This document shows positions 8,012 to 34,699 of a DNA stretch of 40,183 bases, in pieces (positions within the stretch are counted from its first letter, which is position 1; each line of letters begins with the position of its first letter). This DNA comes from a virus. The translations under genes were made by a program, and so were the position numbers. The notes under the pieces were generated by a model that did no database searches, was not told where the DNA came from, and saw nothing but the letters and a program-made list of their open reading frames with translations. The stretch is from positions 1-40,183 of IMG/VR virus record IMGVR_UViG_3300036823_000084, one strand, 5' to 3'.

Positions 8012-8207
8012 AGAGATGGAACTGTGCGACACAACATCGACGCCTCGTGTCGCAGCTCATTGGTGCGCCTGCGTAAACCGGACGGACATGATGGGACCGT
8101 GCCTCACTTGGGAACTAGGCGGGAACGGCCGATGCGTATATTGCGATCACGATCACTATTGCCACCAAATGCTAAACGCCGCGCGAGGAGAAAATTTAGA
8201 TGGCTGA
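8004..8207 (+). CDS. small Cys-rich protein between terminase and portal
   Basis: This 67-residue frame overlaps the terminase end by 8 bp and the portal start by 8 bp, as coupled phage genes do. It has C21, C23, C33, C44, C47 and C53, including CVYCDHDHYC, a probable zinc-binding knot. I do not recognise a family. Its place between two packaging genes suggests a packaging accessory, but small zinc proteins are spread all over this element. Confidence 0.6.
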   Translation: MDEEMELCDTTSTPRVAAHWCACVNRTDMMGPCLTWELGGNGRCVYCDHDHYCHQMLNAARGENLDG

Positions 8208-14288: not shown

Positions 14289-14495
14289 ATGAGGAAAGTG
14301 AAATGGGTAGCACCGAAGGGTAAAGATGCCAAGAAAGAGGCAGCGGCGAAGCCGAAGATAGCCGGCGACGGCGAGACTGCGGAGGCGATGCGGCAGGCCA
14401 CCAAAGGCAAGAAGAAGCCCAGCAAGCCCCACACCCTGGACGAAGTGATCGAGCTGCTGCACAAGCACGGAATCCGCTTCAGCGACGAGGAGTAA
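14289..14495 (+). CDS. small basic protein of the head module
   Basis: This 68-residue protein is very rich in Lys and Ala in its first two thirds (KWVAPKGKDAKKEAAAKPK) and ends in a short helix (TLDEVIELLHKHGIRFSDEE). AAAAGGAGG precedes the ATG. The disordered basic part may contact DNA or other virion proteins. The last helix resembles a short protein-docking helix. No family is recognised. Confidence 0.6.
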   Translation: MRKVKWVAPKGKDAKKEAAAKPKIAGDGETAEAMRQATKGKKKPSKPHTLDEVIELLHKHGIRFSDEE

Positions 14496-14498
14496 GAC

Positions 14499-15503
14499 GT
14501 GGGTAACTCCACCATCAAGCTGAGCAGCGTCTTCAACGTCATCGCCGCGAGGGGAATTCCCGATCCCAGGGGAGGACCCAGCGGCTATGGCGATCAGCTT
14601 GCGCTCGAATGCGCGAGCGAAGTGATGGCGGATATCGTCTGCGAACGCTACAACCAGAAATGGAACCGGGCCTACGCCGCGCCGTTCTACACCAACAGCT
14701 TTCAGCAGGACTATCCCCAGGTCGCGCAGACGGCCGGCCCGATCGGGTGGGGTGAAGACGGCGACGTGATCGACGTGAATAACACCTACATCCCGAAGCC
14801 GATGGACAACATCAAGTGGAGGCGAGGCCTCAGCCGCACCAACCTGAGCCGATGGTGGCCGCAAAACCTCTGCTGGATGTACAACAATGAGCTTGAGATC
14901 GCAGTCTGGCCGGGAGCGGACGTAATTCTCTATCCGCTGCTAGGCGTGAGCGCACCAGGCGGGCAGAACCCGATCCTGAACATGCGGGATAAGAACGGCA
15001 ACATTCTGATCGTGACGACATTCGGCACAACCGGAAACGTCGCGCCTTTCCTGCCAGCCAATAGCGACGAGGGTGTGACCATCGCCGATGGATCTGTGGC
15101 GTGGACGTGCGTAAGTCCCACTTCGCAGGGTTTCCGCATCGACCGGCTGCCGTCCGCCGCGGGGCCCACGCTCGAGATCCGGCCGTACTACCAACTGGAC
15201 CCCCCGCGCTTTGCCACCATGCAGCAGTTCCTCGACCCTATCCCCGACAGCTTCAGCCGGTTTTTCTTTCGCGGGCTACAGGCGCAGTGTCTGCTGAATA
15301 GTCCCAACCCGAACGACGGCAAACGCGGCCAGGAGTTGATGGAACGAGACCGCGACGGCGAGCCGCGATGGATGAAGGAACCGAAGAAACAGGGCGACCG
15401 CGAGCTGAACGTGTATGCGCTGCTGCCGGCGCAGAGCGTCGTCGAACCAAGGTTCGGCTGCAGTGTGCCGCGCACGGCCGATAACCCGTATGGGTGGAAC
15501 TAA
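14499..15503 (+). CDS. putative head-tail connector / tail protein
   Basis: This 334-residue protein starts at GTG, with GAGGAG shortly upstream at the end of the previous gene. The first 130 residues (ALECASEVMADIVCERYNQK, RRGLSRTNLSRWWPQNLCWMYN) and the region after 230 (RFATMQQFLDPIPDSFSRFF) look like a mixed fold. Between them lies a module (about 170-212) with GTTGNVAPFLPANSDEGVTIADGSVAWTC, split here for length as GTTGNVAPF and ADGSVAWTC. That small repeat is common in phage tail proteins and recurs in the large protein at 16519. Position suggests a ring between portal and nozzle. Its stop overlaps the next start (TAATG). Confidence 0.55.
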   Translation: MGNSTIKLSSVFNVIAARGIPDPRGGPSGYGDQLALECASEVMADIVCERYNQKWNRAYAAPFYTNSFQQDYPQVAQTAGPIGWGEDGDVIDVNNTYIPKPMDNIKWRRGLSRTNLSRWWPQNLCWMYNNELEIAVWPGADVILYPLLGVSAPGGQNPILNMRDKNGNILIVTTFGTTGNVAPFLPANSDEGVTIADGSVAWTCVSPTSQGFRIDRLPSAAGPTLEIRPYYQLDPPRFATMQQFLDPIPDSFSRFFFRGLQAQCLLNSPNPNDGKRGQELMERDRDGEPRWMKEPKKQGDRELNVYALLPAQSVVEPRFGCSVPRTADNPYGWN

Positions 15504-16518: not shown

Positions 16519-19500
16519 ATGCCGGGACCGATCGCAGCAGCCGGAGCGGTAGCCAACCCCACCAAGTACGCGGCGCTGAGCATGGGCGCGCGGCAGATGA
16601 CCGGGCTATGGACCCAGCGCAGCCCCTATCGGGATGCGGCCGTGCCGTACCTGCAGGCGAAGTTCTACGGCGGCAGCCGCTTCGATTCCATCCTTGACGG
16701 ATTGAACCGCGAGATCAGCGTAGATCTCACCGACAAGCGCAGCCCCGGCTCGATCGTCTTCAACGCAGACACCTTTCCGGGGATCGAGAGCTTCTATGCG
16801 TGGAAGACGCTGCGCAACAGTGTGGAAGCGATTCGCGTGCTGGGCGACGGAAGCGACGGAACGCTCTACGATGCAACCCCAGGACAAAAGACCGCACTCT
16901 TCACCAAGAGCGCCGGCGCCGGCGCGAACCGGATGCTGGGCCTGCCCAATGCGCAGTTCTACCTCGGCAACGGAGTGGATCAGAAGAAATGGCTCTTCCC
17001 CGGTGGATGGCAGGCAAGCAAGGTTGTGACGCCGGGAACGCTGATCAATCAAGGCGCGGAGCCAGGAACTCTCTTCATGGCGCTGGGCGGCATCACGGTG
17101 CCGATCGTGGCCACTGCGGTCTCTGGCAGCGGATCGTCATGGCAGCATCTGGTGTACGTCAATCCCGCGCAGGTTCCGATCAACTTCGCCAATCTCGTCG
17201 GCGTCGAAGTGACGTTCTCCGGATTGACCACGGATACGGACTTGAACGGAGAGACGCTGACAGTGGACACGGTGCTGAGTTCCACGCTGGGCATCTTCCA
17301 GGTCACCTTCACCAGCGGGACCGCGCAGGCCTACACGCCGGACACCGGCTCCGCGACGACGGGAGACGGAACCACCGGCGGCAGTTCGCCAGGGTTCGAC
17401 TTCACCCGCCTGCACGTGACACAGGACAGCGGCCAGCAATGGAAGTGCTATGGGGCAGCGGTCGAGAACACCGGACTGACCGCGCCATTGGTGCCGCCGA
17501 CGCTGACGCCGGTAACAGGACGATTCTGGCAGCCCAACACCGCCTTTCCGCAGTTCACCAGCCTGCTCGATTCAAACGGCAACATCGAAGTTCTCGCCTC
17601 GACCATGGGAACCTTGCGTAGCGGACCGCTCTATCCGACATGGACCGTCGCGCCCGCAGCCGCGCAGCTGGTGGCGACCAACCTTACGGGAACCCCAACG
17701 CCGCTCGCCAACACCTTCGGCACGATCTACCAGAACATCAGCGCGAACGTCGAACTGCACCAAGGCTTCGGGAACGTCGTCGCCGGCGGCGCGATTGCAT
17801 GGTTCAAACTGCTCATCGGCCCCACGAGTCCTCCCACGATGAACACCTGGGGAACGACGTTCACGGCGACCGACAAGGCCGGCACCGGCAGCAACGGCCA
17901 ACTTGGATTCAACTTCACCGTTCCGCCCGGATGGTTCTACGAGATGCAGTCCGGGGGAGATGTCGATGCGACCCCCGGCTATTGGGACAGCACCGCGCTG
18001 TCTCCAGTCGCGACCGGGATCGCGACGCCGGGAGGCGCGAACGCTGTCACCAAAGACGGAGGGTTGACCTGGTACAACCTGGGCCAGCCGGGTGTGTGGC
18101 AGGCCGACGCCGCCAACGCCGGCGTGACCGGTTCCTGTCTGATCGACTCGAACAACAACCTGCAGTGGCTCTTCAACGGCGTAGGCGGCACCAGTGGCGT
18201 GACAGAGCCGACTTGGGGAACAGGGCTTGGCGACAATACGACGGACGGCGGCCTGACGTGGGTGTGCATCTCGACCGGAGGCTCGGGAGTGGCGCTGACG
18301 TACAAGACGCTGCAGTACTCCTACAGCCTGCACGGCGTCGATGGCAGCCTGAGCACCGCCGCACCGGTTGCGATCGTCTACGGAGGCGTGCTGGGCACGA
18401 CGCCCGCGGTGCTCGATCCCACGCTTATCGTTGCGGCGACCTCGGCCGGAATGTTCTCCGATCCGCAGATCGATGCCATATGGATCTGGCGCACGGCGCA
18501 GGGGCAGCCAACACTTGTTCTCGAAGACCAGATCCCGGCCGATGGACTGACAAACTCTTTCAGCTATGGAGAGGCCGGAATCGCGGACACGTCGATTCTT
18601 GGGCTTGCTGCATTAAATCCGCTGATCCCGGCTCCCATCAACGGAAGCAGCAATCCGCCGACGCCGACCAGCCTTCCGATGTGCTTCGCGTTTCAGCGGG
18701 TGTGGTGGGCGGACGGCAATCTGGTGCGGTTCTCGGGAGGACCTGACACACTTGCCGCCAACGGCAACACCACACAGCCGCCACTCAACTTTCTTCAATT
18801 TCTGGGGATGGTGTATGACATTGTGCCGGTGACTGTGCAGGACGGAGGCCTGCTCGTGTTCACCAGCTCCGGGATTCAGATCATCCTGGGCAGCGGCACG
18901 GCCAGCGATCCGTTCTATGCGACCAGCTACTACAACAACGTGAACGTGGCCGGTTACAACTGCGTCTGCATCCAGGGCACGATGTTGTTTGTGCTCGAGG
19001 TGAATCTCAAGCTCAGCTCGATCGCGATCCAATATCCGTTCAACCCCAACACTGGATATACCGAGATCGGGTTCCCCATCGGCGACCAGCTGCGCAAGGT
19101 GACGACGGGCGGAATCAGCGCATCGCTGTACAGCTCCGCGACGGCGTTTCTGAGTTACAACGACCAGAGCACCGAAGAAAATGCGCTGTACGTGGCCGAT
19201 GGTGCGGTGGGATGGTTCCGCATGACTGCGGTGTCGCCGCCCGAGAGCGGGCTGATATGGCATCCGCGCCGCGCGATCGTCGGAGGCACGAGCGCGGTGC
19301 AGGCAGTGGAGACCTCGCCGGGCCAGACCCAGCTGCTGATCGGGCCGCCTGCCGGAACGCCGGGCCCCATTCTCTGCCGCGACGACACCGGCGCGGTGTA
19401 CAGCGACAACGGCACAGGATATCCGGGGTGGGATGTCAAAGGCGTCACCCAGCTTTGCACAACCGGCCAGTGGGCCGAGACGGTGCATATCAGCGCGAAG

Positions 19501-19800
19501 TCGATGCCGGTAGGCAAGCGCCCGATCGTGAGCATTCTGCTGGGCGAGATCAAGCCAAGCACCAAGCGGCCGTACCGCGCGCTGAAGCTCGACGACAAGA
19601 GCAACGATCCGGCGCGAACGCCGAAAAGCCAGAGCGTCTTCAGCGACAGGTACGTGCTGAAACAGAGCGGAGTTAATACTCTGAGCGATTCTTTGTTGAC
19701 GAAGTTCGACTATGGCAGCCAGACGGTAGGAGATGAGCTGCTGGATTGGGGCATCTACGCGCGAGAGCACGACGAGCGCGAGGAGCAGGTAGCCAAGTAG
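16519..19800 (+). CDS. large tail protein, nozzle-like
   Basis: This 1093-residue virion protein directly follows the connector gene. Its N-terminus (TGLWTQRSPYRDAAVPYLQA, then FYGGSRFDSILDGLNREIS) and its beta-rich body with FCFAFQRVWWADGN-like and GLLVFTSSGIQIILGSG segments recall tail-tube or nozzle proteins of short-tailed phages. The second and third quarters hold several copies of a small module ending in DGGLTWVC or DGGLTWYN (near residues 515-580), probably surface domains inserted in a beta-propeller. About 60 residues at the C-terminus are charged (YAREHDEREEQVAK). It probably closes the tail and anchors fibres. The nozzle assignment is by analogy with T7 gp12, not by alignment. Confidence 0.65.
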   Translation: MPGPIAAAGAVANPTKYAALSMGARQMTGLWTQRSPYRDAAVPYLQAKFYGGSRFDSILDGLNREISVDLTDKRSPGSIVFNADTFPGIESFYAWKTLRNSVEAIRVLGDGSDGTLYDATPGQKTALFTKSAGAGANRMLGLPNAQFYLGNGVDQKKWLFPGGWQASKVVTPGTLINQGAEPGTLFMALGGITVPIVATAVSGSGSSWQHLVYVNPAQVPINFANLVGVEVTFSGLTTDTDLNGETLTVDTVLSSTLGIFQVTFTSGTAQAYTPDTGSATTGDGTTGGSSPGFDFTRLHVTQDSGQQWKCYGAAVENTGLTAPLVPPTLTPVTGRFWQPNTAFPQFTSLLDSNGNIEVLASTMGTLRSGPLYPTWTVAPAAAQLVATNLTGTPTPLANTFGTIYQNISANVELHQGFGNVVAGGAIAWFKLLIGPTSPPTMNTWGTTFTATDKAGTGSNGQLGFNFTVPPGWFYEMQSGGDVDATPGYWDSTALSPVATGIATPGGANAVTKDGGLTWYNLGQPGVWQADAANAGVTGSCLIDSNNNLQWLFNGVGGTSGVTEPTWGTGLGDNTTDGGLTWVCISTGGSGVALTYKTLQYSYSLHGVDGSLSTAAPVAIVYGGVLGTTPAVLDPTLIVAATSAGMFSDPQIDAIWIWRTAQGQPTLVLEDQIPADGLTNSFSYGEAGIADTSILGLAALNPLIPAPINGSSNPPTPTSLPMCFAFQRVWWADGNLVRFSGGPDTLAANGNTTQPPLNFLQFLGMVYDIVPVTVQDGGLLVFTSSGIQIILGSGTASDPFYATSYYNNVNVAGYNCVCIQGTMLFVLEVNLKLSSIAIQYPFNPNTGYTEIGFPIGDQLRKVTTGGISASLYSSATAFLSYNDQSTEENALYVADGAVGWFRMTAVSPPESGLIWHPRRAIVGGTSAVQAVETSPGQTQLLIGPPAGTPGPILCRDDTGAVYSDNGTGYPGWDVKGVTQLCTTGQWAETVHISAKSMPVGKRPIVSILLGEIKPSTKRPYRALKLDDKSNDPARTPKSQSVFSDRYVLKQSGVNTLSDSLLTKFDYGSQTVGDELLDWGIYAREHDEREEQVAK

Positions 19801-19813
19801 AGGAGGTACGGCT

Positions 19814-20290
19814 GTGAAAAGTCTTCCGGTGTATCAGTTCGACGGTTATACGTTTCGCCCCGCGACTCCGGACGATCAGCCTTTGGCGCGGCAATGGAAC
19901 ATGATGGACCCGGATCACAAATGGGAGATGCAGTATCCGGATTACTGGATCGACCAGAACAGCCAGGTGAACAGCTACGTGTTGGAAGATGCGATCGGCA
20001 TCCTGTTTTTCGTGAAGTCGATCCGGCACATGGGTGGTGAACTGGAGATCTCGCTGCAGTTCGATCGACAGTGCGGCATGGTCTCGAAGACAAGGGTGAT
20101 GCGAGGCATGGAAGTGGGCTTTAAGTGGCTGAAAGCGGCGCTGCCCATGAACGGATTCAAGGCTTTATATTTCGTGAGCAAGAACGAGGACCTGATAGTG
20201 TTCACGGAAAAGAGGTTGGGCTTTGTGAAAGACGGAATGCGGGAGATTTACAGGCTGAAGGACGAACCTGAAGTGAAACAGGCTTCATAA
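19814..20290 (+). CDS. GNAT-like acetyltransferase-fold protein
   Basis: This 158-residue protein starts at GTG with a perfect AGGAGG seven bases upstream. It resembles the GNAT fold: a first strand and helix FRPATPDDQPLARQWNMM, a central pair of strands around GILFFVKSIRHMGGELEISL, a helix after SKTRVMRGMEVGFKWLK, and a last segment LYFVSKNEDLIVFTEKRLGF. The acetyl-CoA loop pattern (R/Q-x-x-G-x-G/A) is only weakly preserved as RVMRGME. It lies between tail and ejection-protein genes, where GNAT-like proteins are known in several podoviruses. It may modify a virion or host protein or be structural. Confidence 0.6.
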   Translation: MKSLPVYQFDGYTFRPATPDDQPLARQWNMMDPDHKWEMQYPDYWIDQNSQVNSYVLEDAIGILFFVKSIRHMGGELEISLQFDRQCGMVSKTRVMRGMEVGFKWLKAALPMNGFKALYFVSKNEDLIVFTEKRLGFVKDGMREIYRLKDEPEVKQAS

Positions 20291-20302
20291 GAGGGAGGCG
20301 CG

Positions 20303-20572
20303 ATGGCAGGTAAGTGGATTCAGAAAGCGGATGCAAAAATGAAGGCCAATCACACTAAAGGATCATTCGGGAAGGCGACCGCGAAGAAAATTTCCGCCGG
20401 TCTCAAAATGGGTGGAAAGATGGCGAAGAAGGCACAATTTGCGAAGAACATGAAAGCGATCGCCGCGAAGCACAAAAACCACGCGGGCAGCGGCGGCATG
20501 CGTGCAGCCAAGGGGCACGATGCGATCGGCGACCATCCCGGCTATTCCATGATGATGAAGATGAAGAAATAG
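20303..20572 (+). CDS. small Lys-rich protein
   Basis: This 89-residue protein is extremely basic (Lys about a quarter) with Gly, Ala and Met (SFGKATAKKISAGLKMGGKM, MMMKMKK at the end). GGGAGG precedes the ATG. It probably has little fixed structure and could bind DNA or travel in the head with it. The genes after it look like ejection proteins, so it may belong to that set. No family is recognised. Confidence 0.6.
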   Translation: MAGKWIQKADAKMKANHTKGSFGKATAKKISAGLKMGGKMAKKAQFAKNMKAIAAKHKNHAGSGGMRAAKGHDAIGDHPGYSMMMKMKK

Positions 20573-20585
20573 TAGGAGGTGTGCT

Positions 20586-21203
20586 ATCTCGGGACCTACG
20601 GCGCAGCAAACGCAGTTGGGCGACGCCCAGCTTGCGGCGTACCAGCAGGCGAGCGATTTAACCAAGCAGCAGTATGCGAATCAGCAGTCCATCTACGGGC
20701 CGATGACGCAGCAGTTCCAATCGATCTTCGCGAAAGGCCCTGGGCAGAAGGGCTTCACCGGCGAAGAAGAATCGGACCTGAACGCGCAGGCCGTAGAAGG
20801 CACGGCCGAAAACTACGGCAACGCCGCGCGCGCAGTCGGCGAGACCACGGCGGCGAGGGGAGGCGGCACTAACCCGTTGCCGAGCGGGGCGGATTCCGCG
20901 ATCCAGGGCAATGTCGCCACCAGCGCAGCCCAGGAGGAATCGAGGCAGGAGAGCCAGATCGAAGCGGCCGACTACTCCGAAGGGCATAGCGATTGGGAGG
21001 CAGCGGGAGCGGGACTGCAGTCGATCGCCGCCGGCGACAACCCGCTGGGATTTGAGAACGCGGCGACCAGCTCCGGAAGCGCGGCAGAAACTACCGCCGG
21101 CGCGATCGCCAGCGAAGACGATAGCTGGCTGAATGCGACGATCGGAGCCGTTGGCACCGCCGCAGGTATGGCATCGGGTGCAAGCATCAGCAAGTGGGGA
21201 TAG
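20586..21203 (+). CDS. putative ejection (internal virion) protein, possible ATC start
   Basis: The frame has no ATG or GTG at its beginning. A perfect AGGAGG at 20574-20579 is followed six bases later by ATC (20586), in frame, which would give a 205-residue protein starting (M)SGPTAQQTQLGDAQLAAY. The alternative is TTG at 20616 with no ribosome binding site. The protein is rich in Gln, Ala and Gly. It has a helical first half (LAAYQQASDLTKQQYANQQ) and a small-residue hydrophobic end (ATIGAVGTAAGMASGAS), as in ejected proteins of short-tailed phages. The start codon is inferred, and a base error in an ATG is also possible. Confidence 0.65.
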   Translation: MSGPTAQQTQLGDAQLAAYQQASDLTKQQYANQQSIYGPMTQQFQSIFAKGPGQKGFTGEEESDLNAQAVEGTAENYGNAARAVGETTAARGGGTNPLPSGADSAIQGNVATSAAQEESRQESQIEAADYSEGHSDWEAAGAGLQSIAAGDNPLGFENAATSSGSAAETTAGAIASEDDSWLNATIGAVGTAAGMASGASISKWG

Positions 21204-21212
21204 GGAGAGACT

Positions 21213-23177
21213 ATGGGCGGAACAACATCGGGAGCACAGGCAGCAAGCCAGATGCAGGATGCGGGAGCGGCCACAGCGGGTGGATGGGATGCGGCGGCGA
21301 CTCCTCCACCAACACCACCACAGTCTGCACCAGCGGGCTCACAGCCGCCCGGCAGCGGGCAGCCTGCCCAATCCCCTGCCGCGACGCCATTGGCGACGCC
21401 TGGAGGCTCTGCACCGGGTTCCACACCTCCACCGCCAGCCCCAACGCAACCAGTGGTCGTGACCTCGCAGAAGGCACCGGGGATTATGGGAGTCGTGGAC
21501 TCGATCGCCGATGCGCTGGTAGGTAAAACGAAGCCGGAGATGGGTACCGATGCCCAGGGCAACCAGTATGTGAAACAGCAGACGATGACGCGCGGCCAGC
21601 AATGGGTGCGGATCGGCGCGGGCTTGCTGGGCGGGGCAGCCAAGGGGTTCGCGGCGGGAAAGGGACGCAACCCCGGAGCTGCAGCGGCGGCGGGATTCGA
21701 CCAGGGCCAGCAGCAGGCGAAGGACGCGGCGGCGCAGACACCCGCGTTACAGAAACAGATCCTCGCCGACGCCAACTATCAGAAGCTGCGCATGGACACC
21801 GCAGAGCAGGCGTGGCATCTGACCGCGTTGCAGCACGAGGCGACACAGCACGATGTGACATTCGCGCAGGGACAGGAAGACAGGCTGATGAAGGTGGACG
21901 GCGCAACGCTGCTGGGAACCGCTGCCCATCCCAACGACATCGACAGAATCCTTAAGGTAGAGCCGAACGTGATGAAGGCCATGATTCAGGATCATCAGAT
22001 CGAGATCCTGCCGCACTACAATCCGGACGGCACCGCAGCCGGAATCCGCGTCTTCAAAATGCCGGACAATTACCGTAAGACGATCGAGCCGGCAGGAACT
22101 GTCTTCCACACCTTCGACAGCACGACGGGCCAGTTTATCGAGCACAAAAGCAGTGAACCTCTGACCGCTGGCGAAGTAGACGACTACGAGACCGCAGCCG
22201 GCAACGCCTCGCAAAAGTTCAAGCTCGACCAGGCGAACATTGCCCAGAAGGCGGCCGAGACCGCAGAACAAAAAGCCAACGCAGGCAAAGCGACCGCAGA
22301 AGCTACGAAGGTGCCGAGCGAAATCGCCGAGGCCAAGGCGCGCACCGCCCAGGCGTATTCAGCGGCCGAGAAGGACAGGGCGCAGGCGAAGCAATTGAAC
22401 GAGGGCGGCGACCAGCAGACGATTCAAAACAACGCGCAGCAACTGGTGGAGGGACAGGCCGACCCGTCGAATCTGAGCAAGCGATCGAAGACCTACGATG
22501 CCACCCTAGCCGCTGCGAACGCATATTCTCTGCAGAAGTATGGAAAGCCGTTCGATGTGGCGAAGGCGGTTGGCGATTATAAATTCGCCACCAACACCCA
22601 GACGTACAACACGCTGAACTACCTCAACAGTCTTACAGGCCGCGATGACAAGAGCGGCAATCTGGGCAAGCTGGTGCAGATGTCCGATGCGATGCCGCGC
22701 GCCACAACGTTCCCGCCTCTGAACGAAGCGGCGCAATGGGCGAAGCTGTCGAGCGGCAATCAACAGGTTGCCAGCTACTACGCCGCCGTGACGGAGGTTT
22801 CCGATCAGATCGCAAAGATTCTGCAGGGCAGCGGTACCGGAGGAGGCGGAACTTCCGATGCGAAGCTGAAACAGGCGCAGGACCTGTTCAGTAAAGGATT
22901 CACGGCAGGCCAGATCCGAGGCGTAGCGAATGACACTCTGCGGCCACTGCTGGCCAACCGAAAGACCGAGATCATCGGCGACAACCGCTATCTGCAGCAG
23001 TGGCACCAGCCACAGCAACAACAGCAGCAGCAGGGAGGACAGCCGCCGGCTCTCCCCACGGATGCGCCGCCACCGGCTCAGGGGATGAGCCGCATCTGGG
23101 CACCCGGTTCGCCGACCTGGAAGGACGTTCCGACGAATCAGATTCCTAAAAACATTCCCGGCCTGGTGGTGAAATGA
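21213..23177 (+). CDS. putative ejection (internal virion) protein
   Basis: This 654-residue protein has a Pro/Ala/Gln-rich disordered N-terminus (about 20-85) and a Gly/Ala-rich stretch that could insert in membranes (about 132-160, VRIGAGLLGGAAKGFAAGKG). A long helical middle is rich in Ala, Gln, Lys and Glu (about 330-420, KAAETAEQKANAGKATAEAT), and a run of seven Gln lies near 608-614. Such helical, low-complexity proteins located after the nozzle gene are typically injected with the DNA in podoviruses. Its stop overlaps the start of the next, larger ejection protein. Codon use and composition match its neighbours. Confidence 0.65.
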   Translation: MGGTTSGAQAASQMQDAGAATAGGWDAAATPPPTPPQSAPAGSQPPGSGQPAQSPAATPLATPGGSAPGSTPPPPAPTQPVVVTSQKAPGIMGVVDSIADALVGKTKPEMGTDAQGNQYVKQQTMTRGQQWVRIGAGLLGGAAKGFAAGKGRNPGAAAAAGFDQGQQQAKDAAAQTPALQKQILADANYQKLRMDTAEQAWHLTALQHEATQHDVTFAQGQEDRLMKVDGATLLGTAAHPNDIDRILKVEPNVMKAMIQDHQIEILPHYNPDGTAAGIRVFKMPDNYRKTIEPAGTVFHTFDSTTGQFIEHKSSEPLTAGEVDDYETAAGNASQKFKLDQANIAQKAAETAEQKANAGKATAEATKVPSEIAEAKARTAQAYSAAEKDRAQAKQLNEGGDQQTIQNNAQQLVEGQADPSNLSKRSKTYDATLAAANAYSLQKYGKPFDVAKAVGDYKFATNTQTYNTLNYLNSLTGRDDKSGNLGKLVQMSDAMPRATTFPPLNEAAQWAKLSSGNQQVASYYAAVTEVSDQIAKILQGSGTGGGGTSDAKLKQAQDLFSKGFTAGQIRGVANDTLRPLLANRKTEIIGDNRYLQQWHQPQQQQQQQGGQPPALPTDAPPPAQGMSRIWAPGSPTWKDVPTNQIPKNIPGLVVK

Positions 23178-26100
23178 GCGCCGCCGCAGATCCCCTTGCT
23201 GGTATCGGCGCTGCAGTTGGAGCGCCACCGCCCGCAAGCGGCAGCGACCCACTCGCTGGGCTTGGAAATCCGGTAGGCGCGGCAGCCTCCTCTCCCGCAC
23301 CCGCGCCTACCGGACTAACCGACAACCCCAAGGGCGAAGGCACCTACCAGATGCAGGGGCCGAGCGGCAATCTGGCCGTGCCTTACTCGAAGGTAGCGAC
23401 GGCCACACAGCAGCACGGCTACACCCTGGCCGACGCCGACGCGCCGCGCTACGCGAAGGACGCGGCCAACGATCCGATTCAGCAGCTCAAGGATCTCAAC
23501 ACCGGATTTACCGGCGCGCTGTCACAAACCGGACGCACCGCAGAGAAGGCCATCACTCACGTTCCGATTCTGGGAAAGATTCTGGCCAACAGCAAAGGCT
23601 TTCAGCAGAGCGAGGCCGAAGACGAGGCGCGCGCGAACGCGCCGAACGACACGCCCGCGAAGATGTCAGGGGCAGCGATCGAAAACATTCTGGAGTTCGC
23701 AGCCGGCGACGAGGCGCTAAAAGGACTGAGCTACAGCGAAAAGCTGATGAAGCTCGCACCCGTAGCGAAGCTGATGGAGAAAAGCCCATACCTAGCCAAA
23801 GCCTTCGACACGGCGATCCGCACAGGCATGGTTGGGGCTGGACAGGCCGCAGGGCATGGCGCGGACGCGGCGACGGCACTTGAAAGCGGAGCTGCTACCG
23901 GAGCCACAGGCGGATTACTGGAGGGCGGCCTGGGCGCAGTAGGCAGCTTTGCCAAGCGCACAGCGCCAGCCATTGAGGACATCGCCGGCGAGAAGGTTCA
24001 GACACTCGCATCGCAGCGGCCGGGAACCGTACCGCGCGGCGACGTGGGTGTTAACGAAGTTCCCAAGGTGGGAGCAGCGCAGCAGGCAGCAGCTCCGCGC
24101 GTCTTCCAGAACCTTGCGCAGCGCGCGACCAAGGACGCGCTCGAGGAGGCCAACCAAAGCCGCGTTGTGGCGGGAAAAATCACCGACCCCGCGCGCATGT
24201 TGCCAGCGCCCGAGGGTGCGCAGCCTTACCCGTTCACGATCGAGGGACCAGGTGCGGGCTTCGAGGAAGTACCAGGCGGAACGGAGCCGCGCAAAAAACA
24301 GATCGGCACGCAGTACGTTGCGGGGAAAGGCTCCGGCACGGCGCCGACGACAGAGCCGTACAACGAGGGCACCTTCAAATACGGCGATAGCCAAGCGTTG
24401 CCACAGGTCAATGACTCCGAGCCATTTCAAGGGCCGACGCACAAAGAGCCGGTGTTTCAATACCTCACCGATCTCAAGCCAGGACAGGAGGCGGGAAGCA
24501 CGAAGGTGACAGGTGGAGGAGATCTCGTCGCAGCGGACCCGGAGACGGCACAGGCCCATCTGAGCCGGTTGAACGATCTGGTAGACCATCCACCAGAAGG
24601 CGCAACCGCTGGCCAGATGGGAGCGATCGAGGAGGCGCGAGACAGTCTGCAAGAGCAGATGGATATGTACCACAGCTATCAGCGCACATTGCCGAACTTC
24701 AATCCGCTCGACTCCACACGCGCAGCCGAGAGCGTGGGACACTTCGGCGATGCCGCCGACCAGCTGCAGAACGCGGCCAAACCGATCTATCAGAAGTTCG
24801 ACGAGGCGACAGACGGCAAGTTCGCTGATCTCAACCGCGCGAGGACCGCAGCCGGCAAGCGCGGCGACTTCACCGCGAAGCACGATTACGAAAACCAGAT
24901 CGACCACCTCATCGACGAGACGCCGGGGATCTCGCGGCCGGACCGCCTGCAGGCCACAAGGCTATGGAATAAATCGAAGGTGCTGGACGGACTCAACGAT
25001 GTTGTGAACGATGCCGCGAACGTCGATGACAAGTACGCCTCGCAGGTTGCCGGTGGCCGCGTGCTGAGCGGCGTACGGATGCGGAACGGGATGCAGCAGC
25101 TCATCAAGCGCTACGGCGCGGACCGCCTCGAGAGCGTGATCGGCAAAGACGGCATGGAGAACATGACCCGCATCTCTGATCTGCTGAATACGCCGAAGGC
25201 CGCGCAGGGTTTCAAGGGAATGAGCCTGAGCGTGTTGCACAATATCATGCACGGCAAGGTGGGAGGCGCGCTGGGTGCGGCGGCGGGACATCACCTGTTC
25301 GGATTCGAGGGAGCGGTCGCGGGATCGTATGCCGGCGCGAAGGCCGAACGATGGATGCTGCAGATGGCCGCGACCAGCCCGCGCGTCGGGAAGCTGCTGG
25401 ACTATGCGGTGCGCAACAACGTGACGCCGAAGGTGGCGGCGGCGGGAATCTCGGCTGCGATGATTCAGGAGAGCCAGCCGGACCAGCCGGCGACGACGAC
25501 GCCATCCGAGAAGAAGAAGCCGCTTACCATGCTGAGCGACGAGGCCAATGACAGCGCGCCGGCGAACAACACAAACGTGGACGCAAGTGCAACGCCGCAG
25601 GCGCAGGCCGACGCTGCGATCGCGAACACGCCGGCAGCGGTGCAGCAGGCTTACCACGCCGTAGACCCCGCAGTGGTGCAGGGCCAGCCGCTGAGCGGCC
25701 GCGGCGGCAATGCAGCCGATGCCAGCGTGGACCAGGGCGCGGGAAACAACACGATCGAGATCAACGATCCGGCCAGCTTCCAGCGCCACCCGGCATCGAC
25801 CACGGCTCACGAGCTCGTCCACACCTGGCAGAACAATCTGCCGCCATCGGTGCAGGCGAATATTCCTGCGGACGCCGAAGACATGAGCGCGTTCAATATC
25901 GCCGACGCCGACAAGCTGCGGGCGCAGGGCCACACGCTGGCAACCATCCCTCGCGAGAAGGCGGCGACGATCGTACAGAAGTACATCGAAGACCCGAAGG
26001 CAAACGCGAACCTGAAACCGTGGGTCGATGACATGGGGAAGACGGCGCTTTCGAGTACGCTACCGACAGCACCGAATGCCACGAAGTTGAACACGACGCC

Positions 26101-26179
26101 GCGATCGCCAGCGGTGCCCGGCGCGGACGTTGCAGGAATGGAAGCGTTCTACGGCCACAAAACGAAAGGGAAAAAATGA
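23174..26179 (+). CDS. giant ejection protein with C-terminal HELVH metallopeptidase motif
   Basis: This 1001-residue protein has a disordered Pro/Ala start (1-60), helical regions, and two Gly/Ala-rich possible membrane segments (about 218-258 and 693-725). Near the end, TTAHELVHTWQN gives H879-E880-x-x-H883, the zinc-peptidase signature, with a following W-Q as in DUF4157-type (HELxHxxQ) domains. Ejection proteins often carry a cell-wall enzyme; a metallopeptidase could cut peptidoglycan crosslinks or process virion or host proteins. No other lysozyme motif was seen. A third zinc ligand is not obvious. The start is in an ATGA overlap with the gene before, and the stop overlaps tad2. Confidence 0.7.
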   Translation: MSAAADPLAGIGAAVGAPPPASGSDPLAGLGNPVGAAASSPAPAPTGLTDNPKGEGTYQMQGPSGNLAVPYSKVATATQQHGYTLADADAPRYAKDAANDPIQQLKDLNTGFTGALSQTGRTAEKAITHVPILGKILANSKGFQQSEAEDEARANAPNDTPAKMSGAAIENILEFAAGDEALKGLSYSEKLMKLAPVAKLMEKSPYLAKAFDTAIRTGMVGAGQAAGHGADAATALESGAATGATGGLLEGGLGAVGSFAKRTAPAIEDIAGEKVQTLASQRPGTVPRGDVGVNEVPKVGAAQQAAAPRVFQNLAQRATKDALEEANQSRVVAGKITDPARMLPAPEGAQPYPFTIEGPGAGFEEVPGGTEPRKKQIGTQYVAGKGSGTAPTTEPYNEGTFKYGDSQALPQVNDSEPFQGPTHKEPVFQYLTDLKPGQEAGSTKVTGGGDLVAADPETAQAHLSRLNDLVDHPPEGATAGQMGAIEEARDSLQEQMDMYHSYQRTLPNFNPLDSTRAAESVGHFGDAADQLQNAAKPIYQKFDEATDGKFADLNRARTAAGKRGDFTAKHDYENQIDHLIDETPGISRPDRLQATRLWNKSKVLDGLNDVVNDAANVDDKYASQVAGGRVLSGVRMRNGMQQLIKRYGADRLESVIGKDGMENMTRISDLLNTPKAAQGFKGMSLSVLHNIMHGKVGGALGAAAGHHLFGFEGAVAGSYAGAKAERWMLQMAATSPRVGKLLDYAVRNNVTPKVAAAGISAAMIQESQPDQPATTTPSEKKKPLTMLSDEANDSAPANNTNVDASATPQAQADAAIANTPAAVQQAYHAVDPAVVQGQPLSGRGGNAADASVDQGAGNNTIEINDPASFQRHPASTTAHELVHTWQNNLPPSVQANIPADAEDMSAFNIADADKLRAQGHTLATIPREKAATIVQKYIEDPKANANLKPWVDDMGKTALSSTLPTAPNATKLNTTPRSPAVPGADVAGMEAFYGHKTKGKK

Positions 26180-26436
26180 ATTTTGGAGATGCGATCGCAG
26201 CTTTGAAGAATGGCCAGCGTGTAGCCCGCGCCGGCTGGAACGGCAAAGGAATGTTTTTGTATTACGTTCCCGAAGGCGCGTACCCCGCGCGCACCGAAGT
26301 AGCAAAGAAAGAGTGGGGCGAGGATGCCCTAGTGCCGTACCAGGCGTACATTGCCATGAAAACCGTGCAGGGAACCGTGGTGCCGTGGCTGGCCTCGCAG
26401 ACCGATATGCTGGCCGAAGATTGGGAGGTGCTGTGA
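26176..26436 (+). CDS. tad2: Tad2-like anti-Thoeris protein (DUF2829)
   Basis: This 86-residue protein has the DUF2829 pattern from end to end: start MNFGDAIAALKNGQRVARAG, then WNGKGMFLYYVP, then YIAMKTVQG and VPWLASQTDMLAEDWEVL. Tad2 proteins of this family bind the cyclic ADP-ribose signal made by the Thoeris defence system and so stop it, and some bind other cyclic nucleotides (established for phage members). Length is normal. The ATG overlaps the stop of the ejection protein, so it would be made with late proteins, and its own stop overlaps the Acb2/Tad1-type gene. The ligand range of this copy is not known from sequence. Confidence 0.87.
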   Translation: MNFGDAIAALKNGQRVARAGWNGKGMFLYYVPEGAYPARTEVAKKEWGEDALVPYQAYIAMKTVQGTVVPWLASQTDMLAEDWEVL

Positions 26437-26834
26437 GACAGGAAGACATCGACAACTGGTTTCAATACCACACGCCCACACCGGCGCGACTCAGCAAATA
26501 CTTCGACCTCCGCAACTCTGCCAAGGCCTTCGCGGAGCAATTCGACAAGAGCGTGCCCGACTGCGCGGACAAGACGGCCGCAATGCGTCATCTGCGCGAA
26601 ACCGTGATGGCGATGAACCTGGCGATCGCGTGCAACCCCGAGGAGAAGCCTGCACCCACTACCTCAAAAGAAAAAGTGCTGGCTCGCTTTCCCGAAGCCT
26701 ATGTGACCTCATCTCCGAAGTTTCCTGCGATGGTCTCCCTCTACACCAACGTAGGCGATTACTACCTCAACGCCACAGACGAACAAACCGCGTGGGATCA
26801 CATGGCAGAGATGATCGAAAAGGCAAACGCATGA
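26433..26834 (+). CDS. Acb2/Tad1-hairpin protein with extra C-terminal domain
   Basis: This 133-residue protein starts at GTG in a GTGA overlap, with GGAGG just before. Residues 1-68 fit the Acb2/Tad1 helical hairpin: FQYHTPTPARLSKYFDLRNS, then helices ending in ETVMAMNLAIACNP, very like the NAAIACN end of that family. Such proteins bind cyclic oligonucleotide or cADPR-type immune signals (anti-CBASS or anti-Thoeris). Y12 and R27 lie near the reported binding Tyr and Lys of Acb2, as I remember it. Residues 70-133 form another domain (KEKVLARFPEAYVTSS, then NATDEQTAWDHMAEMIEK) that I recognise only vaguely from phage proteins. Next to tad2 it makes an anti-defence pair. Confidence 0.75.
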   Translation: MRQEDIDNWFQYHTPTPARLSKYFDLRNSAKAFAEQFDKSVPDCADKTAAMRHLRETVMAMNLAIACNPEEKPAPTTSKEKVLARFPEAYVTSSPKFPAMVSLYTNVGDYYLNATDEQTAWDHMAEMIEKANA

Positions 26835-27025
26835 GCGTCGTGAGCAAGGGCAAAGTCTACGAAGGCAACGAGCGACCACCCGCTGGTGAGCCGGACATTC
26901 TGCTGCCAAAAGAGCAATGCCCGTCGTGCCGAAGATGGTATACCGACATGCTGCTGCACTTATGGCGCGGATGTGATCAGAATGGAGAGAAACGAACGAT
27001 GCCCCACAAAGGAATGAAGCCATGA
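26831..27025 (+). CDS. small zinc-finger protein (64 aa)
   Basis: ATGA coupling with the Acb2-type gene sets the start at 26831. The 64-residue product has C30-x2-C33, H43 and C48 (CPSCRRWYTDMLLHLWRGC), a compact CCHC zinc site with a Trp-rich helix. The N-terminus (KGKVYEGNERPPAGEPD) is flexible. The gene lies downstream of two anti-defence genes, so it may belong to the same cassette. No family is recognised, and a host-takeover or regulatory role is only a guess. Confidence 0.6.
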   Translation: MSVVSKGKVYEGNERPPAGEPDILLPKEQCPSCRRWYTDMLLHLWRGCDQNGEKRTMPHKGMKP

Positions 27026-28092
27026 GTCACAAACCACAGAGCGCGGCACTGCACATCGCACGCCGTCACCAGAGCGCGCCGGCAGCTCACCCAGCCGAAG
27101 CGGAGATCCGCAAGGCGGCCGAGGAGATCGACGGAGGCCGCTACGTGGCCGACACCCGCGCGAGTGACGAGCAGGCGCTGGACGGGCTGGGACTGGCGCT
27201 GGGCATGGGGATCGATGGCGTGGCGGTGGGCGATGCGCCGAGCTTCACCGACTGGCACAAGGAAGAACAGGTCACCCGGCAGATGAACGAGCTGGGCCGA
27301 CATCCGCGCGTGGTGGAGGCGATGGAACGGCTGGAGCGGGAGATCGAGAACGTAAAGACGCCAGAGGAAGAGGTGGAGATGCGCTGGCGGATCCACGAAC
27401 TACTGGCGGCCGAGCAGGAGCGCAACAAGTGGAAGGGCCAGGAGCGATGGGAGGGCCGCGAGAACGAAGAGATGCGGCGCGGCGAGGTATTGAGTCCCTG
27501 GCAGTTTCACGAGCGGCTGTGCAAGTCCCTGGGACGTCCAGACCGCGTCCTGCTGAAAGACGATCGCATTGTGAAGATGAGCAGCACCGGAAAGAGCGGA
27601 CTGCTGGCACTGGTAATCCGCAACCCGATGTGGAACGGTCAGACCGCCATCCAGCACGACTACGCCCAGGTGAAGGCCGGCGAGATGAAGCAGGCGGCAG
27701 AGGGCGAGCTGGTGAAGGCGAAGCGGCTGCGCAAGGCGAAGTACAACGCCGAAGCTGACAAGAGCTTTCACCTGGCCGGCGACATGATCCAGACCGCGAC
27801 CGAGATCCTGATCGAGCGCGAGGCCTACGAGACCGAGGTTCCGGAGTTCCTGAGAGTGGGCACCCTACAGGCTCCGCTGGGCACGGAGTGGATGATTATG
27901 GGATTCGACGAGTTCGGCGTGCCCACTTCGGCGAAGTATGTAGGCTGGCGCACCGCGCTGCTGACGATGATGCGGGCGCGAGTGATTACCGAGGCAGAGG
28001 CGCACCAGGCGTTTCCGCTGGGCAGCGGTCCGGCCGCAGAGTGGTACCTGCAGCAGCTCTACATGCAGCGCAACGGAGAGACGGTGAACTGA
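27022..28092 (+). CDS. hypothetical 356-residue protein, probably structural or DNA-module
   Basis: This protein starts in an ATGA overlap. The N-terminal 90 residues are Ala/Glu-rich and probably disordered. A long charged region follows (about 95-165, EREIENVKTPEEEVEMRWRI) that could be a coiled coil. The second half has mixed character (GKSGLLALVIRNPMWNGQ, KAKYNAEADKSFHLAGDMIQ, LGTEWMIMGFDEFGVPTSAK). GKSG is not a Walker A motif here, since the preceding Gly pattern is missing. I do not recognise a family. It lies in the accessory cassette between ejection protein and hydrolase, so it could be a virion or anti-defence component. Confidence 0.55.
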   Translation: MSHKPQSAALHIARRHQSAPAAHPAEAEIRKAAEEIDGGRYVADTRASDEQALDGLGLALGMGIDGVAVGDAPSFTDWHKEEQVTRQMNELGRHPRVVEAMERLEREIENVKTPEEEVEMRWRIHELLAAEQERNKWKGQERWEGRENEEMRRGEVLSPWQFHERLCKSLGRPDRVLLKDDRIVKMSSTGKSGLLALVIRNPMWNGQTAIQHDYAQVKAGEMKQAAEGELVKAKRLRKAKYNAEADKSFHLAGDMIQTATEILIEREAYETEVPEFLRVGTLQAPLGTEWMIMGFDEFGVPTSAKYVGWRTALLTMMRARVITEAEAHQAFPLGSGPAAEWYLQQLYMQRNGETVN

Positions 28093-28406
28093 TGGTTACT
28101 CAAATGAAGGGCACACTGTCAAAAAAGGTGCTGGAAAAACTTAATTCCGGTATAGCTCTCGCGCTGAAAGATGCGATTGAGCTACTGCCCAACATCGACA
28201 GGACGAATGTCTACGTCATGTATAACCCGGAGCCGCCGGAAGGCGACTATCCCTATCGAGTCGGGTATGACCACAATGGGATAAAAGAGTGGTGGGCTGG
28301 GCCTACCTTCAAAATCGCCGTGGGGCATCTGGCGGAAACGATGTCGCCTGCAGGTATAGCGGAGAGGCGAAGGATGAACGTGCCAATACCGGGTGAGGTG
28401 AACTGA
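28092..28406 (+). CDS. hypothetical protein of the accessory cassette (104 aa)
   Basis: The ATG at 28092 overlaps the previous stop, although the frame is open upstream. The 104-residue product has a helical start (LSKKVLEKLNSGIALALKDA) and a strand-rich end (VYVMYNPEPPEGDYPYRVG, HNGIKEWWAGPTFKIAVGHL). I do not recognise a family. Its stop overlaps the next start by TGATG, so it belongs to a translationally coupled string of small genes. Confidence 0.55.
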   Translation: MVTQMKGTLSKKVLEKLNSGIALALKDAIELLPNIDRTNVYVMYNPEPPEGDYPYRVGYDHNGIKEWWAGPTFKIAVGHLAETMSPAGIAERRRMNVPIPGEVN

Positions 28407-28657
28407 TGGCCTCATTCGATCAGGAAGAGAGAAAGATTCAGGCGCGCGCGGACCGGGCGAGAGAAGAGCAGAGAGAGGAGCTGTGGCGGACACAGTGCGC
28501 GCCGAGGTTTTCCAATGCTGGGCTGTCTCCGCAACAGATCGAAGTGGCGAAGAGCACCTTTTGCGCCGGCTTCGATGCGGGATGGGAGAGCCACCAGGCG
28601 TTTCTGATGACTGAATTCATTCTCGACAATCAGAAAAAGAAAGTGCATCTGGCATGA
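28406..28657 (+). CDS. small charged hypothetical protein (83 aa)
   Basis: This 83-residue protein has an acidic/basic helical start (SFDQEERKIQARADRAREEQ), then PQQIEVAKSTFCAGFDAGWE, an Ala/Gly-rich helix often seen in small phage proteins with an FxAGFxAGW pattern. It starts and ends in stop-start overlaps (TGATG and ATGA). The family is not known to me; the AGFDAGW part is a recurrent phage motif without assigned function. Confidence 0.6.
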   Translation: MASFDQEERKIQARADRAREEQREELWRTQCAPRFSNAGLSPQQIEVAKSTFCAGFDAGWESHQAFLMTEFILDNQKKKVHLA

Positions 28658-28887
28658 CAACGTTCCTATGTCGAAGAGTGTTCAACCTGGATAAAAGCTG
28701 CACGTGCTGCCCACGTCGCGCAACGCATATCTATCGCGTGCTGCGCGACACCGGAGCTGATAGCTGGCAGGTAGAGAACTACAGAATGTGTGCGCGGTGC
28801 TTTGCGTCCTACAGGGATAAGAATCGACACGCGATCAACATCGATCACGCGTGGCCTCATCGCTGCAAGCTGAGAGGACACGCATGA
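28654..28887 (+). CDS. small zinc-binding protein (77 aa)
   Basis: The gene is coupled by ATGA at both ends. The product has C6, C16, C18, C19 and a CARC pair (C46, C49), with His residues near the end (HAWPHRCKLRGH), a pattern consistent with a zinc ribbon. Charged and aromatic residues around the pairs (VFNLDKSCTCCPRRA, MCARCFASYRDK) suggest binding to nucleic acid or protein. No family is recognised. Confidence 0.6.
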   Translation: MTTFLCRRVFNLDKSCTCCPRRATHIYRVLRDTGADSWQVENYRMCARCFASYRDKNRHAINIDHAWPHRCKLRGHA

Positions 28888-33280: not shown

Positions 33281-34699
33281 ATGGCACGGATTCCCAAGGA
33301 AGAGCGTCACGCCCAGGTGGACGCGATTGTCGAAGCCAGCAGCAATAACATGCACATCATCGAGATGCGCATCGAGAACATCAAGCGCGTCAAACTGGCG
33401 CACATCAAACCCAAAAATAATCTAGTCGTCGTCGCCGGCAAGAACGGCCAAGGCAAGAGCTCCGTCCTCGACGCGGTGAGTTGGGCGCTGACCGGTACCT
33501 CGACGGTGCCGCGCTACCCCATCCGCAAGGGCCAGCGCACCGGCAGCGTGAAGGTGGACATCGGCGATTTCGTTGTCACGCGGTACTTCACCCACGTGGA
33601 CGAGGAGAAGAGTGAAAAGGGATTGACCTACATGTCGAAGCTCGTCATCACCGGCAAGCGCGGCGAGGCCTTTCCCAGCCCACAGGTCCTCCTCGACAAG
33701 CTGCTGGGCAAGATCAGTTTTGATCCGATGGCGTTCCTGCGCAAGGACGACGACGCCCAGCTCGAGGAGCTGCGCAGCCTGGTGACGTTCGACGTGGATA
33801 TCGACGCGATGGAGGCCGAGCAGAAAGCCGACTATGACGCGCGGCGCGAAGCCGGCCGGGTGGCCGAGTCGCTAAAGAGCCGCGTGGCTGCGATGCCCGC
33901 TCCGGCGCCGGATCTGCCCACGGAAGCGATCGACGTGGCAGCGTTGACCCTGAAGCTGCAGAATGCGGCCCAGCACAACAGCCAGGTCGCAGCATGGAAG
34001 CAGAAGAAGGCTGGGCTGATGGAGAAGGCCGCCGCGGCCGGACAGGCGGCAGGGAAAAAGCGCGACGAGGCACTGTCAATGCTGCTCGAAGCACAGGAAC
34101 TGGACGGCTTGACCGTCTATCTCCCGGAAGGCGTACAGGGAGAGGGCCAGATGCAGGAGCTACTGGCCGAGGCTGACGCGATCACTCCCGGCGAGGAGAT
34201 CGACACCGCCGGCGTTGCCGCCGAACTGACCAAGGGGAACGAGACCAACGCGGCCATCCAGCGCGCGGCGAACTATCGCCAGCTCGAAAAGGATCTCGAG
34301 TCGGCCGACGCGGCCTGGGACGCGATCGACAAGCGGATGAAGGAGCGGGACACCACGCGCGAGGCCGCGATCGCGCGGGCCAAGATGCCCATCGAGAAAC
34401 TTTCGATCGCAAACGGTGAGGTTGTTTACGACGGGTTCCCACTCAACCAGGCGTCGAACGCCGCGCAGATCCGCGTGAGCATGGCGATCGGCATGGCCGC
34501 CAACCCCAAGCTGCGCGTGCTGCGCATCAGCGATGGGAGTTTGCTGGACGACGACAGCCTGCAGCTCGTCGGCGACGAGGCGAAGGCGAAGGACTTTCAG
34601 GTGTGGATCGAGCGCGTGGAGACAGACGGCAAGGTGAGCGTGGTGATGGAGGATGGCAACGCGACGGGCGAGGACGTGGAGGTGGAGGAGAAGAAATGA
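33281..34699 (+). CDS. SMC/RecF-like AAA ATPase
   Basis: This 472-residue protein has an N-terminal half typical of SMC/RecF/SbcC-type ATPases: strand HIIEMRIENIKRVKLAHIKP, then Walker A GKNGQGKSSVLDAVSWAL (K59). A central charged helical region (about 160-370) could form a short coiled coil. The C-terminal part contains FPLNQASNAAQIRVSMAIGM, which resembles the ABC signature, followed by LRVLRISDGSLLDDDSL (Walker B-like, with Asp but not the usual D-E). Such proteins act in DNA end processing or recombination. GGAG precedes the ATG. It heads the operon controlled by the operator at 33231 and is followed by small genes and an HNH nuclease. Confidence 0.8.
   Translation: MARIPKEERHAQVDAIVEASSNNMHIIEMRIENIKRVKLAHIKPKNNLVVVAGKNGQGKSSVLDAVSWALTGTSTVPRYPIRKGQRTGSVKVDIGDFVVTRYFTHVDEEKSEKGLTYMSKLVITGKRGEAFPSPQVLLDKLLGKISFDPMAFLRKDDDAQLEELRSLVTFDVDIDAMEAEQKADYDARREAGRVAESLKSRVAAMPAPAPDLPTEAIDVAALTLKLQNAAQHNSQVAAWKQKKAGLMEKAAAAGQAAGKKRDEALSMLLEAQELDGLTVYLPEGVQGEGQMQELLAEADAITPGEEIDTAGVAAELTKGNETNAAIQRAANYRQLEKDLESADAAWDAIDKRMKERDTTREAAIARAKMPIEKLSIANGEVVYDGFPLNQASNAAQIRVSMAIGMAANPKLRVLRISDGSLLDDDSLQLVGDEAKAKDFQVWIERVETDGKVSVVMEDGNATGEDVEVEEKK

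Follow-up and report, generated by a model that had tools for sequence, protein, structure and literature searches.

Do two neighbouring genes in a virus contig of 40,183 bases (the window, i.e., the whole stretch of DNA that was analysed) give a phage two different sponges for bacterial alarm molecules in one coupled unit, as a preliminary description of the sequence had proposed? The first gene, at 26176..26436 on the plus strand, has an ATG start and encodes an 86-amino acid protein of the Tad2/DUF2829 family (PF11195) in its short, ModTad2-length form. The second gene, at 26433..26834 on the plus strand, has a GTG start at 26433 and encodes a 133-amino acid protein matching the Pfam family Acb2_Tad1_hairpin (PF24729), referred to here as the Acb2-like protein. 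Both open reading frames (ORFs) were found exactly at the positions given in that description, as was the GTGA stop/start overlap (26433..26436, plus strand; read from the sequence), and both family assignments were borne out by Pfam matches exceeding the curated cut-offs. Homologues in three sister contigs (L002, L003, and L004) begin at the position of GTG 26433, backing this start; a 234-amino acid ORF with a TTG start (26130-26834) was ruled out as the second gene because relatives begin at the GTG.

Within the gene run at 21213-28887, 4-nt overlaps occur at six junctions and 1-nt overlaps at two more. The GTGA overlap is therefore ordinary for the operon and says little. Of the coupling proposed earlier, the overlap itself is real and the pair recurs in unrelated phages, but overlapping reading frames are a general feature of this operon. 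Placement in a late operon was plausible as judged by gene order. A head-tail adaptor-like gene lies at 8200-10413 and long virion-protein-like genes occupy 16519-26179. Directly upstream of the pair, the gene at 23174-26179 encodes a 1001-amino acid protein with a HELVH zinc-peptidase-like motif in a terminal region; its L003 and L004 homologues appear shorter by about 240 amino acids, and the HELVH-bearing end may therefore also be accessory. Elsewhere in the window, a plasmid RepA_C family protein (PF04796, 2.7e-18) is encoded near the contig start (709-1713), which is unusual for a contig otherwise laid out as a tailed-phage genome, and an AAA/SMC-type ATPase (33281-34699) matched phrog_1499 (function not known; 1.8e-87). 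A host search in genome_contigs returned one distant match only, to a Calditrichia MAG.

Single sponge proteins can cover several signals. Tad2 is a homotetramer that binds gcADPR, His-ADPR, or cyclic dinucleotides. The Tad2-like protein of the window matched PF11195 over its full length (profile 1-73/73; E 4.4e-29; 101.3 bits against a cut-off of 25), and the solved structures that it matched best by sequence were Tad2 entries from Myroides odoratus (8v3e and 9eib; E about 1e-26). In phmmer, the match to ModTad2 9eib reached 8.6e-27 at about 50% identity. The AlphaFold2 model of the protein had a pLDDT of 96.8. A Foldseek comparison with Tad2 structures, suggested in the preliminary description as a check, returned 9eib (ModTad2 with hisADPR) as the top match (E 2.2e-11; VIA Z 11.9). 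Every solved Tad2 entry listed had a VIA Z of 11-12, and the next unrelated entry had 5.8. ModTad2, which comes from an M. odoratus prophage, shares the PF11195 family, the full-length match, and the fold with the Tad2-like protein. At 88 and 86 amino acids, respectively, both proteins are without the 10-16 residue insertion of HgmTad2 and SptTad2, its absence from the Tad2-like protein being read from phmmer alignments.

Across 35 Tad2 homologues, the following residues were invariant: R18, G20, W21, N22, G23, W71, S74, D77, and L79. These map to the beta1-beta2 loop (G20-G23) and to the last loop/helix (W71, S74, D77, and L79), elements that line the gcADPR pocket of Tad2 (PMC12043709). With the pocket taken from this published description, the conserved residues of the Tad2-like protein would lie in the pocket-forming loops. 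In some Tad2 proteins, a long insertion between beta2 and beta5 has been described as the site for cyclic dinucleotides (PMC12043709). Because the Tad2-like protein is without it, its ligands are predicted to be mainly of the ADP-ribose type (His-ADPR or gcADPR), and not cGG. The signal targeted by MoTad2 is His-ADPR, and that targeted by SPO1 Tad2 is gcADPR (PMC13299392). ModTad2 was solved with His-ADPR, whereas the ligand of the window's protein is a prediction. Many Tad2 homologues (L017, L058, L082, L270, and others) carry an N-terminal domain ahead of the Tad2 domain, with a motif like GYxVxYxDGxxSWSPKxxFexaY.

Acb2 is composed of a short N-terminal helix and two long antiparallel helices, and forms a hexamer binding cyclic di- or trinucleotides. 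In Tad1, an antiparallel beta sheet at the N terminus precedes two long helices at the C terminus. The Acb2-like protein matched PF24729 over residues 12-67 only (E 1.8e-9; 38.1 bits against a cut-off of 27). The experimentally proven T4 Acb2 (Vs.4) scored 71.4 bits with the same profile, which had matches in none of 14 well-known control genomes. In the model, the hairpin part (26433..26642, plus strand) formed a short N-terminal helix (residues 3-9) and two long antiparallel helices (17-40 and 45-67), with a block pLDDT of 81-98. Of the Acb2/Tad1-type assignment made earlier, the Acb2 topology was retained and the Tad1 form was not, as the model had no strands ahead of the hairpin (residues 17-67) and thus no N-terminal beta sheet of the Tad1 type. 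The hairpin family is common to both proteins, and SREN..AL..VEEALMWMN, a motif of Tad1, resembles the wider hairpin family, but the hairpin is C-terminal in Tad1 and N-terminal in the Acb2-like protein.

In the VIA comparison of the Acb2-like model, T4 Vs.4 was the top entry (Z 6.6) and Acb2 8h2x the third (Z 6.4), tied with unrelated helical entries. Foldseek with the whole model gave no significant match (E 1.5 to solved Acb2), and direct phmmer against the PDB matched nothing. A profile of the wider hairpin family searched against the PDB gave 'Acb2 homolog 43' (9ptq) at E 1.4e-4, Tad1 at 0.01, and Vs.4 at 1.1. The near relatives in L002, L003, and L004 are 73 amino acids long and 82-91% identical to the Acb2-like protein in the hairpin. 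Like known Acb2 proteins (T4 Vs.4 and gp24 of PaP2/PaMx33), the Acb2-like protein has the Pfam hairpin domain with a short N-terminal helix and a long helical hairpin; unlike them, it has an extra C-terminal part and falls in PHROG 1454/31113 rather than PHROG 717. Acb2-like hairpin proteins of four Paenibacillus and Brevibacillus phages (H13, H34, H38, and H43) are annotated as 'phosphomannomutase', which is apparently a propagated misannotation.

Vs.4 contacts cGAMP through Y8, H11, K23, R79, and F82, and has an interface alanine, A77 (PMC10097602). In a weak profile alignment of the Acb2-like protein with Vs.4 (E 1.5e-4), the tyrosine and basic pocket positions were kept (Y8 as Y12 and K23 as R27), three others were lost (H11 to P15, R79 to L63, and F82 to A66), and A77 corresponded to M61. 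Y12 and R27 are highly conserved across the hairpin family. The family consensus SREKSLA...MWANASIARN reads CADKTAA...MAMNLAIACN in the clade of the Acb2-like protein. Because the equivalents of H11, R79, and F82 are missing, the protein is classed from its sequence as a divergent hairpin-family relative, not a strict Vs.4-type Acb2, and it probably works as a sponge.

The lost R79 and F82 equivalents and the clade-wide departure from the family motif would also fit a possible, though doubtful, alternative in which the Tad2-like protein is a sponge for ADP-ribose-type signals and the hairpin protein binds some other ligand or uses its extension for a new job, so that the pair would deal with two signals, one of them novel. 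The wider hairpin family, however, also substitutes R79 and F82 (Ala and Ala), and the pocket may simply be built differently. Consistent with another ligand are the retained Tyr and Arg, the extension being unique to the window's phage, and the differing ligand ranges of known Acb2, Tad1, and Tad2 proteins (PMC12043709).

The C-terminal extension of the Acb2-like protein (26643..26831, plus strand; about 60 amino acids) begins exactly where the L002 protein ends (GAGGAGAAG). It was absent from L002-L005, where the proteins terminate either right after NPE or within a few residues of it, and at its 3' end the frame overlaps the following small ORF by ATGA. The extension was predicted as alpha-beta-beta-alpha with low confidence (block pLDDT about 51-78). 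No relatives of the extension were found in phages, viral_contigs, or Pfam, and PHROGs matched at E 0.1 only. An open frame as long as the extension arose in 7% of shuffles; a length not improbable by chance makes the function of the extension uncertain. VIA entries for this low-confidence part of the model were mostly double-stranded-RNA-binding domains (Z 5-6.5). In such domains the last helix should open with a basic stretch. Because this stretch was not evident in the extension, capture of CBASS-activating phage RNA appears unlikely from the model.

Among the sister phages, L002 and L004 carry both genes, with ATGA at the pair junction. In L003, the closest sister, the hairpin gene is present and tad2 was not found within the available stretch; the pair is therefore not obligatory. 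The small ORFs following the hairpin gene differ: L004 has an unrelated small ORF, L002 and L003 have none, and the window has a Cys-containing ORF of 64 amino acids (26831..27025, plus strand), which follows the hairpin gene, precedes the next conserved gene, and shares the accessory slot of the pair. This ORF has a CPSC...C spacing and no Pfam match. The position after the hairpin gene is a variable cargo slot. Such varying small ORFs between conserved genes in the window, L002, L003, and L004 speak for the main alternative to a cassette, namely that the two genes are neighbours only through shared permissive accessory slots (an anti-defence island) with no functional link. Four-nucleotide overlaps are generic in the gene run and anti-CBASS genes are known in anti-defence islands (PMC11722364; PMC10767833), both of which agree with this alternative; we nevertheless consider it the less probable account, given how the two families are spaced in other phages.

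The spacing was examined in a set of viral contigs around Acb2-like and Tad2-like genes, with flanks of up to 8 kb, each searched with the partner profiles. Around 113 distinct Acb2 anchors there were six Tad2 genes (all in the same orientation as the anchor and <500 bp away; none in the other 1.24 Mb), and around 142 distinct Tad2 anchors there were eight Acb2 matches, two of them weak (all <500 bp away; none in 1.19 Mb), counts that overstate independence because some anchors are relatives of L183 that were added once its pairing was known. The +/-1 kb zones made up 15% of bases for the Acb2 anchors and 19% for the Tad2 anchors. Co-occurrence across several lineages was always at <500 bp on the same strand and never farther out in the flanks, which argues against shared slots as the sole link. 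So does the same order, tad2 then acb2 with overlapping stop/start, in unrelated contigs: L220 (ATGA), and L183 and L291 (TAATG). Looser Tad2/Acb2 neighbours were found in L124, L066, L270, L222, and L032. In L124 (4518-4722) the Acb2-like gene appears broken, the first half of the hairpin forming a 52-amino acid ORF and the second half lying in another frame, and the nearby tad2-like gene is intact. L291 has two Acb2-like genes (8031-8222 and 14392-14580), one paired with tad2 and the other about 6 kb off.

In cultured Mycobacterium phage MalagasyRose, gp4 (Tad2; PF11195 3.7e-23) overlaps gp5 (hairpin; PF24729 2.4e-22). MalagasyRose gp5 has added residues around the hairpin too, but these are unrelated to the extension of the Acb2-like protein. 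The gp4-gp5 genes directly precede terS and terL, and terminase genes also lie near the pair in L183 and L220. That the pairs of L183, L220, L124, and MalagasyRose adjoin terminase and portal genes, and that of the window adjoins long virion-protein-like genes, would suit a routine phage role for one or both proteins, as virion or packaging accessories, in place of a role in immunity. This is very improbable: Z was high for the Tad2 fold only, and tad2, which was not found in L003, comes and goes among close relatives, as accessory genes do.

In quick family trees, which rest on few columns, the paired state fell in several separate places, with 10 changes in the Tad2 tree and six in the Acb2 tree, of which well-supported branches force at least four and at least two, respectively. 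The paired label was no more clustered in the Tad2 tree than shuffled labels, and pairing was a minority arrangement (1/80 loci in the A3 scan). No plasmid record had one place covering both genes. The pairing as such was not reported in the searchable literature, most subscription papers being outside the search. Because the same two families adjoin in several unrelated phages, the pairing has the look of a two-part counter-defence kit that recurs, not of an accident. A true functional unit, with co-translated and perhaps physically associated sponges that unrelated phages assembled several times independently, and with the window's extended hairpin protein binding an immune signal outside the known Acb2 range, is improbable.

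Overall, the two genes very probably encode two distinct proteins, each soaking up bacterial alarm molecules. The pair is fairly likely to be a two-sponge counter-defence cassette, with Tad2 for ADP-ribose-type signals and the hairpin protein for cyclic oligonucleotides. Homology, the Tad2 fold, recurrence with close linkage, and the part of the Acb2 pocket that is kept speak for the cassette. The lost R79, F82, and H11 equivalents, the departure of the clade from the consensus, L003 without a detected tad2, and the minority arrangement were counted against it. Recurrence in unrelated phages strengthened the proposal of a unit with two sponges; the hairpin protein has lost part of the cGAMP pocket. 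For the cassette we infer ligand binding, oligomerisation, timing, and a benefit of pairing as follows. Both sponges would be produced jointly from a single phage operon. The Tad2 homologue would sequester ADP-ribose-type Thoeris signals (gcADPR or His-ADPR), leaving Thoeris effectors inactive, and the Acb2-like hairpin protein would oligomerise and sequester cyclic oligonucleotides from CBASS or related systems. As adjacent genes, they would form a single block that a phage could acquire and express for protection against two classes of alarm that differ in chemistry.

Both anti-defence islands and phages that carry several anti-signal genes are already documented (PMC11722364, PMC10767833). 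The SPO1 acb4 cluster and T4, with acb1 and acb2, resemble the window in having more than one anti-signal gene per phage, but the two genes of the window directly adjoin and overlap each other, in an order that recurs. If phages repeatedly build Tad2 and Acb2 pairs, selection may favour combined cover against ADP-ribose-type and cyclic-oligonucleotide signals. With MalagasyRose, which is grown on M. smegmatis mc2 155, the pair could be studied directly in culture. If true, the pairing would also suggest a simple way to search for new counter-defence genes, namely beside tad2 or acb2.
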